Assembly: GCA_028287235.1 (NCBI GenBank)
Contig: JAQBQB010000020.1
Coordinates: forward strand, 1-64,000
Reading direction: 5' to 3'
Origin: Gemmatimonadota bacterium
Lineage (GTDB): Bacteria; Gemmatimonadota; Gemmatimonadetes; Gemmatimonadales; Gemmatimonadaceae
DNA: 64,000 nucleotides
The notes below the pieces were generated by a model. The model saw only the letters and a list, made by a program, of their open reading frames with translations, was not told the DNA's origin and did no database searches. The translations under genes and the position numbers were made by a program. Positions 20,476 through 23,876 of this stretch are shown here, in pieces. How positions within the stretch are numbered: the stretch's first letter is position 1; each line of letters starts with the position of its first letter.

Positions 20476-22965
20476 TTACACCGCGCGGGCGAAATGACCG
20501 CGAGTATACTCCGGCCCCACGGCGCGCCGAACCGCTTCCACGTCGGGACGCGCGCCGGCGGCCAGCGCGTCGAGCGCGTCACGATAGCCGCGAACGATGG
20601 CGCGCACGTCGTCGCCCGGCACGTTGAACACCGCGTGGAAGCCGCGGATTCCGGCGCGCCACAGCTTCGGCAAATACTCCGAGCCGTCCACGGGACGCGA
20701 GTGCAGCAGGCGATTTCGGCACGCCGAGTCGGTGGCCACCGGGAACGTGTAGCCCGTGGGATCGGTCAGCTCGACGTTCGTGTGCTTCTGCACGCACAGA
20801 TCGCGGCACGTTGTCGGCTCGCGGTCGAACGCCGCCGAGAGGACGCAGTGCTCGATCGTCATTCCCTCGGGCCGTCCGTACAGGAAGACGTCGAAGCCCT
20901 CGCCGTCCCAGGGCGCGGTGAGCTGGGTCAGCTCGTCGGTCGTCAGCTCCACGGACGTCACGATGCGGCGCGCGCCGAGCCGGAACACTTCGGCCGCGGT
21001 GTGCGCGTTGAACACGTTCAGTGCGTAGTCCGCGACCACGTCGCGGCCGCCGCGCGCCAACTCGGCCACGAGGCCAAGGTGGCCGCTGAGCATCGGAAGT
21101 CCGAGATCGAGCCACTTCTGAATGCTCTTCCGATCTTCCGGACGCACGATCGTTGGCGTGCGCAGTCGCAGAGCGACGCCGCGCGCGGTGAGCCGCTCCT
21201 GCAACGCGCGAACGCGAGCGAGCGGCGGCGACGGATGCCGGATGAACGGATCGAAGCAGATCTCCGTGGCGCCGGATTCCGCCGCGGCGTCGGCATCGTC
21301 GATCGAGAAGACCTGCACCGAAAGATCGAAGGGCTTGTCGCCCACCGCGTGTCGCTCGACGCGCGGCACGGCACCGACGGCGTGATCGACCTGTGACCGC
21401 AGCTCGGCGAGCTTGGCGTCGCGCGCCCAGTCGCGCTGCAGCATCAACTGCTCGACCGCCTGCTGGCGCAGATGATTCTGTTCGCTCTGCGGAAGGAACA
21501 ACCCGCTCGCCAGCGCGGTGACGTCCACGTTGCCGAGGACGAACGGCGTGTCGCCGACACGGCCGAGCTGCTCGCGCAAACTCGTCATGTCGAGCGGCCG
21601 CTTGGAGGCGAGCGAGAGGGTCATCTCCGAGCGCACCGTCACCGTTTCGCCGTTGGCGGAGAACACGGCCTTGAGCGGCGTGCCGGCCGCCCCGAACAGG
21701 CGCACGTCGAGCCGTGCCTTCTTGATGCGAATCTCCGGCGACAACGCGGCGTAGCTCGCACGCGCGCGCTCGAGCAGCTTCGCTTCGGACGTGCGCACGA
21801 CGCGCCATCCGGCGTCGATGTGCGAGCGCGTCTCGATGGCCTGGCGCGTGCTGCCGCGCGTCTGCAGCGTGCGGATCTTCTCGACGCTGAAGCCCGTGGT
21901 TGGCCCGCCGACGTTGTCGGGTGCCTCGAAGCCAAGTCCGTCGCCGACTTGAATTGGTGACGACACGTCGACGATCAGCTCGCCGCGCTCGTAGCCCACG
22001 ACGGTGCCCAATACCATGCCGCGATTGTCCGGCTGCGTGCGCGTGACGTAGTGCCGCCCGTCGCGGCCGCCGTACATGCCGCCGGTAAAGCCGCGGCTGA
22101 AGATCTGCACGAGCGGCTGCACTTCTTCCACGGTCGGCGGCGTGGTGTCGCCTTGCTCCACGCGATCGAGGAATTCACGATAGGATTTCGTGACGGTGGC
22201 GACGTACTCGGGCTTCTTCTTCCGCCCTTCGACTTTGAGACATCCCACGCCGGCGTCGGCGATCGCCGCGAGGTGGTCGTAGGCGCCGAGGTCCTTGGCG
22301 GAGATGAGAAATCCGCGATCGAGCTCCGCCTTGCTGTCGAGATCGGTCAGCACGTAGTCCTTGCGGCAGGACTGCGCGCACGATCCGCGGTTGGCGCTGC
22401 GCTCGGAGATCATGCCGGACATGTAGCACTGTCCGGAGTACGAGATACAGAGCGCGCCGTGCACGAAGGTCTCGAGCCCGAGCGACGGAACGGCCGCGTG
22501 GATCTCGCGAATGTCCTCGATCGTGTTTTCGCGCGCGAGCACCACACGTTCGACGCCCAGCTCCTGGATGACCGCCGCGCCGCTGGCGTCGTGGACGGTC
22601 ATCTGCGTGGAGCCGTGGATCTCGAGATTCGGATAGACTTTCTGGATCAGTCGGACGAGCCCGATGTCCTGGACGATGACGGCGTCGATCCCGAGCGCCA
22701 CACACTCGCCGAGGAACATCAGCGCGTCGACGAGCTCGCTCGGCTTGATGAGGATGTTGAGTGTGAGGTAGATGCGGCGACCACGCTCGTGCGCGATGCG
22801 GCAGGCCTCGCCGAGCTCTTCAAGGGAGAGCTGCGCTCCCTCGTCACGGGCATTGAAGCGGGACGCGCCCATGTAAACGGCGTCGGCCCCGTTGGCGACA
22901 GCGGCGCGAACGGCCTCGAGAGAACCGGCAGGAGCGAGGAGTTCTGGAATGCGATGCGCTGTCAT
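20476..22965 (-). CDS. rlhA: U32 family peptidase-like protein, double-module RlhA type
   Basis: Probably the 23S rRNA C2501 hydroxylase type of U32 protein. 829 residues. The first U32 module starts IPELLAPAGSLEAVRAAVANG and has the cysteine set C-ISYSGQC, SANRGSCAQSCRKDY (residues 172-202) expected to bind an Fe-S cluster. A middle DUF3656-like region follows. A second U32-like module (from about residue 560, KPFDLSVQVFSIDDADAA) has its own cysteines (CVLSAAFDREPTTCRDLC, and CRNRLLH). The double-module length matches RlhA rather than YegQ/TrhP. ATG 22965. It stands alone between the 311-bp palindrome and copy A of the dispersed repeat. Confidence 0.82.
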   Translation of the reverse strand: MTAHRIPELLAPAGSLEAVRAAVANGADAVYMGASRFNARDEGAQLSLEELGEACRIAHERGRRIYLTLNILIKPSELVDALMFLGECVALGIDAVIVQDIGLVRLIQKVYPNLEIHGSTQMTVHDASGAAVIQELGVERVVLARENTIEDIREIHAAVPSLGLETFVHGALCISYSGQCYMSGMISERSANRGSCAQSCRKDYVLTDLDSKAELDRGFLISAKDLGAYDHLAAIADAGVGCLKVEGRKKKPEYVATVTKSYREFLDRVEQGDTTPPTVEEVQPLVQIFSRGFTGGMYGGRDGRHYVTRTQPDNRGMVLGTVVGYERGELIVDVSSPIQVGDGLGFEAPDNVGGPTTGFSVEKIRTLQTRGSTRQAIETRSHIDAGWRVVRTSEAKLLERARASYAALSPEIRIKKARLDVRLFGAAGTPLKAVFSANGETVTVRSEMTLSLASKRPLDMTSLREQLGRVGDTPFVLGNVDVTALASGLFLPQSEQNHLRQQAVEQLMLQRDWARDAKLAELRSQVDHAVGAVPRVERHAVGDKPFDLSVQVFSIDDADAAAESGATEICFDPFIRHPSPPLARVRALQERLTARGVALRLRTPTIVRPEDRKSIQKWLDLGLPMLSGHLGLVAELARGGRDVVADYALNVFNAHTAAEVFRLGARRIVTSVELTTDELTQLTAPWDGEGFDVFLYGRPEGMTIEHCVLSAAFDREPTTCRDLCVQKHTNVELTDPTGYTFPVATDSACRNRLLHSRPVDGSEYLPKLWRAGIRGFHAVFNVPGDDVRAIVRGYRDALDALAAGARPDVEAVRRAVGPEYTRGHFARAV

Positions 22966-23010
22966 AAGTCATGAAATCTAACAGCGTTACTCGTCTATCG
23001 GGGCGGGAAA

Positions 23011-23321
23011 ACTGGCCGCTACGCCGGGACGATTCCGTCGTTTTTTTGTTCACGGATTCCGCGGATCGTGCGGAAAGGGCCGGATCGCTCCGTGATGAGC
23101 GATGGATTCTCTCGCAACGAGCCCGGACGACTTTTTCTTTGGAATAGACGCTCGGGACGCTTCGATTGGCTTCCTGAGCGTCTGTTCCAAAGAAAAAATG
23201 TTCGTCCGGGCTCGTTGGGCATGGAGCTGTCAATGCACTCGGAGCGATCCGGCAGTTTTCGCGGCTGTTTCCGCGGAATCCGTGAACAACACGACGGAAT
23301 CGTCCCGACAGAGCGGCCAGT
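23011..23321. repeat. 311-bp imperfect palindrome
   Basis: Arms start actggccgct (23011-23020) and end agcggccagt (23312-23321). Matching blocks read inward include cgggacgattccgtcgt, ttgttcacggattccgcgg, gccggatcgctccg, caacgagcccggacga and tttctttggaa-agacgctc, with a short centre near 23163-23172. Both strands therefore read nearly the same and give similar spurious peptides. No transposase. It fills the 355-bp gap upstream of rlhA, so it could act as a terminator for the upstream operon or be a MITE-like element. Confidence 0.85.
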
Positions 23322-23485
23322 CACTCCTCGGGCGGTTGCTTTTTCTTGAAGAATCGCGCGACAAACGCAGCCGCAAAAAATGCCAGACCGATCAGAGTGA
23401 GCCGCGAATCCTCGACCCTCTGTCCATACCCCCACACGATGAGTCCAATCGCCAGCAGCGCGAGTTGAATCTGTGTTCGGGACAC
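23321..23485 (-). CDS. small membrane protein, two transmembrane segments
   Basis: 54 residues: SRTQIQLALLAIGLIVWGYG (membrane segment 1), a charged turn RVEDSR, LTLIGLAFFAAAFVARFF (segment 2) and a KKKQPPEE tail, so both ends likely lie in the cytoplasm. GTG 23485 is preceded by AAAGGAG, a good Shine-Dalgarno; the longer open frame upstream is not protein-like. It follows the AtuA-C gene by 4 nt and ends exactly at the palindrome edge. Family not recognised. Confidence 0.7.
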   Translation of the reverse strand: MSRTQIQLALLAIGLIVWGYGQRVEDSRLTLIGLAFFAAAFVARFFKKKQPPEE

Positions 23486-23489
23486 GAGC

Positions 23490-23876
23490 TCACTCCTTTG
23501 GCGACCTGGCGTACGCCGGCCGCTGCTTCGCGCCGGGCATGCCGACGTTCTTGGCTTCGTCGTCCGGCACTTCAATTTCCATGCGGAGCATCGCCGTCGA
23601 GAAGACCTTTCCTTGGGCGTCGGTCTTCAACGACAACGTGCCGCCGCCGTCGAGCGCGCCATGCAGCAGGAAATTGAGCGCCTTGAGATTCGGCAGCTCG
23701 AAACGCTCCACCGGACCGGTGATCACGTCCCGGAAATGTTCCTGGACGCGCTCGAGTGTGACGTAGCGCTGGATGATTGGGTACCACCGCGGCTCGAGCG
23801 CGATCAGGCCGACGTTGGCCGTGTCGCCCTTGTCGCCGGAGCGAGCGTGCGCGATGTCGAGGAGACGGACGTTCAT
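23490..23876 (-). CDS. AtuA-associated C-terminal-domain protein (ferredoxin-like fold)
   Basis: 128-residue protein starting VRLLDIAHARSGDKGDTANVG, the recognisable opening of the small domain that follows AtuA in acyclic-terpene and related acyl-CoA catabolic clusters. In some species it is fused to AtuA; here it is a separate gene in a TGATG overlap with it. Biochemical role unknown. ATG 23876. Confidence 0.85.
   Translation of the reverse strand: MNVRLLDIAHARSGDKGDTANVGLIALEPRWYPIIQRYVTLERVQEHFRDVITGPVERFELPNLKALNFLLHGALDGGGTLSLKTDAQGKVFSTAMLRMEIEVPDDEAKNVGMPGAKQRPAYARSPKE

Follow-up and report, generated by a model that had tools for sequence, protein, structure and literature searches.

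The question raised by this locus is what kind of element occupies the intergenic region upstream of rlhA in a Gemmatimonadaceae genome (assembly GCA_028287235.1, hereafter G000), where a long palindrome is found in the 64,000-nucleotide window, i.e. the whole stretch of contig JAQBQB010000020.1 that was analysed. The initial annotation had described an imperfect palindrome of 311 bp, devoid of coding capacity, that could be a MITE, a large transcription terminator or a regulatory site of rlhA.

The palindrome and its coordinates, 23011-23321, were borne out by both inverted pairs and predicted fold. An inverted-repeat search returned the pairs 23011-23047/23285-23321 (86% identity), 23039-23065/23270-23296 (89%), 23070-23139/23193-23262 (70%) and 23132-23160/23169-23197 (90%), and the sequence blocks originally named in the left arm have their mirror copies in the right one. 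The region 23000-23330 is predicted to fold into one continuous hairpin of about 130 pairs at -230.7 kcal/mol, compared with a mean of -125.1 (sd 5.8) kcal/mol for 100 dinucleotide shuffles, none of which matched the real fold (z -18). At a stricter setting, four long palindromes were detected in the 335,737-bp contig, this one being the strongest, and none in two Markov-3 control sequences. The shuffle z, the empty controls and the dispersed copies described below rule out chance or a local artefact. The element is also non-coding according to a codon-usage gene caller: ORFs of 93-191 aa span it in several frames and none scores as coding, which eliminates a coding sequence. Its parts and immediate neighbours, with the evidence on which each rests, are as follows.

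23011-23321, no strand: the complete giant hairpin, made up of the core and type A arms (inverted pairs, fold, copies in the own genome, copy alignment).
23011-23091, plus strand: left outer arm, ACTGGCCGCT..CGGGACGATTCCGTC..CACGGAT..CGCGGA..CCGGATCGCTCC (alignments of 27 copies and of 50 arms).
23092-23114, plus strand: left side of a variable internal loop, where a local mini-hairpin with GATCGCTC is possible (within- versus between-copy arm comparison).
23112-23220, no strand: core hairpin common to several species, here CAACGAGCCCGGACGA .. GACGCTCGGGA .. TCCTGAGCG .. TCGTCCGGGCTCGTTG, model R1 (core-model searches).
About 23161-23168, no strand: apical loop, centre of the palindrome (fold and arm alignment).
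23218-23240, minus strand: right side of the variable internal loop (within- versus between-copy arm comparison).
23241-23321, minus strand: right outer arm, mirror image of 23011-23091 (inverted pairs and arm alignment).
20476-22965, minus strand: rlhA-like gene (Peptidase_U32), starting 45 bp past the element's other end (ORF, gene caller, Pfam).
23321-23575, minus strand: 84-aa ORF without Pfam match, whose stop codon (23321-23323) overlaps the element's right end.

The element does lie upstream of rlhA, as annotated, its closer neighbour being the 3' end of the preceding gene. The gene order recQ-rlhA-84-aa ORF-atuA is conserved in all six genomes of the genus, with a homologue of the 84-aa ORF at the same place in 5/5 congeners. 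The gap before rlhA measures 355 bp in G000; in the five congeners, which lack the palindrome at this place, it is roughly 40-90 bp long. Because the site is empty in all five congeners with the same gene order, the element is to be read as an insertion at the rlhA site of G000, which this comparison of gaps establishes at the level of sequence. Just before the rlhA start, positions 22966-22995 hold TTAGATTTCA, represented by TTATATTTCA in three of the five congeners and by a close variant in the other two; this conserved stretch is possibly a promoter that was spared by the insertion.

A cis-regulatory or riboswitch-like RNA of rlhA could be expected at such a place, 45 bp upstream of the start, and the predicted hairpin is highly stable; however, the element is missing before rlhA in every congener, its other copies stand behind unrelated genes such as dnaB, the cores of relatives stand behind RND pumps, and no match reached the gathering score in an Rfam search. 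We regard this explanation as very improbable, a leader or riboswitch proper being ruled out by the empty orthologous sites, and the proposed regulatory site of rlhA is left unsupported. The Rfam 15 search of the element returned four matches (E up to 1), none of which came close to its gathering score; the weak matches to microRNA families merely reflect the long hairpin, and a known RNA family is excluded.

The genome-wide search for further copies that had been put forward as a check was run on the host genome (5.73 Mb, 31 contigs) and established that the palindrome is multi-copy. The 79 BLAST matches were grouped by hand into 38 loci, to be read as at least 38 because only 40 of the 57 candidates were scored. 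Near-full-length copies, 72-83% identical, occupy 25 of these loci. Copies can be aligned end to end (27 copies and 50 arms, the partial arms of L032 and L033 being left out of the latter) and display subfamilies and chimeras, such as L018, which combines a right arm of the main subfamily with a left arm of the GATCGCCGG subfamily. In a few host copies, the same core is framed by arms that look quite unlike these, namely of AGCGTTAGCACGGAC..ACGGCACGGACACG type. Other palindromes coexist with this family on contig C26 of the same genome. A second family, GTCATCCTGAGCGAAGCGAAGGATC .. GATCCTTCG..CTCAGGATGAC, is found at about 104671, 134870, 197801 and 264427 (L054, L055, L058 and L062), as well as at orthologous gaps in G001 and G003, and a perfect palindrome of about 50 bp, at about 80748 (L052), consists of TAGTTCACTGGTCCCTGTTCTGAGT back to back with its own reverse complement.

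The location of the copies relative to genes was determined from the calls of a purpose-built codon-usage gene caller, used in place of a curated annotation. Neighbours were clear at 37 of the 38 host loci, of which 20 are convergent, 17 tandem and none divergent; the corresponding background counts on C26 are 18, 153 and 19 (190 gaps). The convergent excess is significant against these gaps (20/37 versus 18/190, Fisher 5e-9) and against the 18% of gap bases (1e-6), and so is the divergent deficit (p 0.006 to 0.02). At the tandem host loci, the upstream stop (median distance 23 bp) is closer to the element than the following start (median 85 bp) in 15/17 cases (p 0.001). Among 31 loci of relatives, the context is convergent at 10, tandem at 18, divergent at 2 and unclear at 1, a count leaving out the 8 loci of G068 and G069, and 16 of the 18 tandem loci are nearer the stop (p 0.0007). 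The element family thus sits at gene 3' ends, a bias that could reflect mere avoidance of promoters and genes.

Comparison of the two arms informs on the origin and maintenance of the palindrome. Left and right arm consensuses are 0.914 identical, single arms deviating by 16.6% from the consensus. Among the 25 near-full copies, outer arms resemble each other within a copy more than when shuffled (0.83 vs 0.76-0.79, z about 5), a signal for which subfamily structure may account in part. Conversely, similarity between the two sides of the internal loop is lower inside a copy (0.466) than across copies (0.531, z about -3), and core halves match within copies no better than shuffled ones (z -2.0 over all 25 copies, -1.0 in subfamily A). 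Arms kept complementary copy by copy are therefore suggested by the outer arms only, the core lending no support and the inner loop pointing in the opposite direction. Core stem pairing, evaluated over ten genomes (51 rows, 48 pairs), amounts to 0.764 against 0.731 when 3' halves are permuted over the full set of loci (z 5.3), and against 0.762 when permuted inside each genome (z 0.3). Because shuffling within genomes leaves the pairing unchanged, there is no sign of upkeep of individual hairpins; core pairing beats the first shuffle and not the second, and the palindrome is therefore kept between species without visible copy-by-copy repair.

The dispersed copies and empty sites bring the MITE idea to the fore, and the kind of element that it proposes was largely recovered: short, non-coding, in tens of dispersed copies, with inverted repeats that are terminal and in fact extend over the entire element, and with empty orthologous sites in relatives (the rlhA, L024 and L019 gaps). 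The defining mark of a MITE was not. A target-site duplication was not found in 21 of the 25 near-full copies, the other four being without both anchors (lengths 2-12, offsets 0-25; best z 2.1 among 286 combinations), and the ends of the element fade out gradually, across some 20 bp at CCTCGACTGGCC. Since no duplication appears in these 21 copies and no mobilising enzyme was identified, we do not file the element as a MITE. A classical MITE would be a deletion derivative mobilised by a DDE transposase recognising the ACTGGCCGCT terminal inverted repeats; small size, lack of genes, subfamilies and chimeras would all fit, but no autonomous relative with these ends was seen, palindromy covers the whole element and not its ends alone, and the arms, ends included, vary between species while the core is common. 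This origin appears improbable to us. The search for a mobilising enzyme covered the Y1 transposase family PF01797, which has no match in G000, listed as 100% complete, and occurs in two of the eight core-positive genomes of the set searched (G001 and G032); dispersal by a RAYT/Y1 enzyme was discarded, the host genome having no Y1_Tnp.

The account that we favour, and hold to be rather probable, is that the palindrome is a copy of a giant-hairpin repeat, non-coding and dispersed, that was inserted here, settles at gene 3' ends, spread from a palindromic source and has a weak two-way transcript-end effect as a by-product. Copies would have spread from a nearly perfect palindromic source, as the 91% identity of the arm consensuses suggests, through a transposition-like process acting on a folded single strand and leaving no target duplication. 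The mobilising enzyme would be supplied in trans or now lost, and most copies would decay after insertion. Because the element stands directly behind a stop codon and forms the same hairpin on both strands, it may constitute a weak bidirectional transcript-end structure separating the upstream gene from rlhA, possibly by polymerase stalling, by blocking 3' exonucleases or as the target of an RNase III cut. Such an effect would be a by-product making the 3' end a safe landing place, and not a control specific to rlhA. In its most economical form, this account describes a non-autonomous hairpin repeat landing behind stop codons and tolerated there, which may act as a two-way transcript-end structure.

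The large terminator proposed initially is compatible with part of this picture, since copies sit at gene 3' ends. The long stem has no T-run behind it, and a terminator scan gave 2 short stem-plus-T sites in the arms for 1.0 expected, i.e. chance level. Short terminators of ordinary look are also present in the same contig.

The occurrence of the core beyond the host was followed with R1, a model derived from 31 hand-chosen cores. Because it was built on a sequence alignment and itself contains only 10 base pairs, R1 is mainly a sequence profile, and the counts obtained with it may miss diverged cores. It detected the core in 8 of the 59 genomes (G000 included), comprising all six members of the genus and representatives of two other genera, and in none of the 24 genomes of this set that belong to other families of the order. 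Within the family, the 107-bp core was present in 10/179 genomes and 3/35 genera; in a sample of the phylum, it was present in 8/395 genomes, all eight being Gemmatimonadaceae. A pattern scan of 84,980 named genomes matched one contig, JAICJQ010000095.1, from a Gemmatimonadaceae bacterium. Phages, plasmids and viral contigs gave no match to the element, so that spread by phage or plasmid receives no support.

At the level of sequence, these searches establish a 107-bp core hairpin common to three genera, surrounded by palindromic arms that vary by species and subfamily. In G001 and at most loci of G004, the arms enclosing the core are built from ACGCAGAGG-type units; they consist of CACGG-type units in G003 and of ACGGATT/ACGGAC units in G024, G068 and G069. 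Arrays of elements were observed in G005, with three consecutive cores at L097 (C6:6698-7224) and two at L100 (C47:172082-172480), each array confined to a few hundred bases.

Of all the loci collected, two cross-species pairs are flanked by orthologous genes on either side, and each pair shares a recognisable core set in unrelated arms. The dnaB|radA pair joins L025 (G000) and L091 (G001); at this gap, G003 has a hairpin with a core-like centre and G004 another hairpin, so that four different hairpins occur across congeners, the gap being gene-sized (915 bp) in G005 and 9 bp long in G002. The RND|RND pair joins L096 (G004, type C arms) and L099 (G005, GC-rich arms); at this gap, G001 has a GTCATCCTGAGCG-type hairpin and G003 a palindrome of GAGCGAATGGAAA units, G002 has 4 bp, and the 209 bp of G000 contain no more than a short stem-loop. 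Two further gaps, chosen by hand and not at random, are mostly without the element. The L024 gap is without the element in G003 (46 bp) and G004 (63 bp), G001 and G005 not being resolved; in G002 (L148), it contains a hairpin at the stop codon, one arm being a run of the 8-mer CTGGAACG and the opposite arm a run of CGTTCCAC, as if tandem duplication were extending the palindrome on both sides. The L019 gap measures 6 bp in G002 and 8 bp in G005 and has a GTCATCCTGAGCG hairpin in G003 (G001 and G004 not resolved).

These gaps lend themselves to another explanation, in which selection acts on the very presence of a long hairpin at certain gene ends, as a two-way terminator or insulator. The sequence supplying it, be it this repeat family, some other repeat or tandem-repeat arms grown locally, would be kept and replaced over time. 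The unrelated hairpins of RND|RND and dnaB|radA fit this explanation, as do the 8-mer-repeat hairpin of G002 at the L024 gap, the GTCATCCTGAGCG hairpin of G003 at the L019 gap and the distribution of strong hairpins (z below -4) on C26, in 5/12 convergent, 13/91 tandem and 0/17 divergent gaps. Against it stand the gaps without hairpin, at rlhA in 5/5 congeners, at L024 in G003 and G004, at L019 in G002 and G005, and at RND|RND and dnaB|radA in G002. Moreover, both shared sites were ascertained because two species already had the core, and core pairing is not compensatory within genomes. Selection of the structure first is in our view unlikely. A bolder reading of the same gaps is that some gene ends of these bacteria inherit a shape and not a sequence: a small core would seed a giant palindrome whose arms are regrown and replaced in place via the growth of mirrored tandem units of 8-12 bp, leaving orthologous ends with unrelated hairpins. 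Its basis is the two ascertained gaps plus a few more, and the many empty orthologous gaps weaken it; we advance it as a doubtful but conceivable scenario. Finding one core in different arms, at two orthologous gaps, provides a concrete test case for the origin, survival and rebuilding of long chromosomal palindromes, and for the selection of a gene-end hairpin regardless of its sequence.

The dispersed repeat that we favour can be situated among known systems. It resembles bidirectional intrinsic terminators in being a hairpin readable on both strands and often located between convergent genes, and differs from them by its size, about 130 pairs against stems of roughly ten, and by the lack of a T-run after the long stem. 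ERIC elements are 127 bp long; the giant hairpin is much longer, the two being compared by description and not by sequence. ERIC, Correia and BOX/RUP/SPRITE repeats are presented in PMC10969869 as MITE-like imperfect prokaryotic palindromes with stable RNA hairpins and reported effects on mRNA decay; the giant hairpin shares with them its non-coding nature, imperfect palindromy, tens of copies and intergenic location, some of them also being at gene 3' ends. It departs from them by a core nested in species-varying arms, by the absence of a visible target duplication and by its occurrence here in only three genera of one family. REP, BIME and REPIN elements and GTAG/CGTC-tagged repeats (PMC3733652; PMC3116915) are likewise palindromes near stop codons; REPs are 20-40 bp long with a GTAG or CGTC tag, the GTAG type being associated with RAYT transposases. 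The giant hairpin is 311 bp long, has no such tag at its aligned ends, and PF01797 is absent from its host. The loop mismatch interrupts an otherwise long perfect palindrome, and a protection from SbcCD would be an attractive role for it by analogy with REP heterodimers, whose mismatched paired repeats are suggested in PMC3733652 to escape SbcCD; the mismatched inner loop of the giant hairpin is alike. Among the best matches in the open-licence PMC literature, no description of this family was found, nor of any such palindromic repeat in Gemmatimonadota. The best reading is that the element belongs to the dispersed palindromes of the REP/ERIC/MITE-like kind and is not an rlhA-specific regulator, and the giant hairpin represents a large and unusual addition to the bacterial palindromic repeats.
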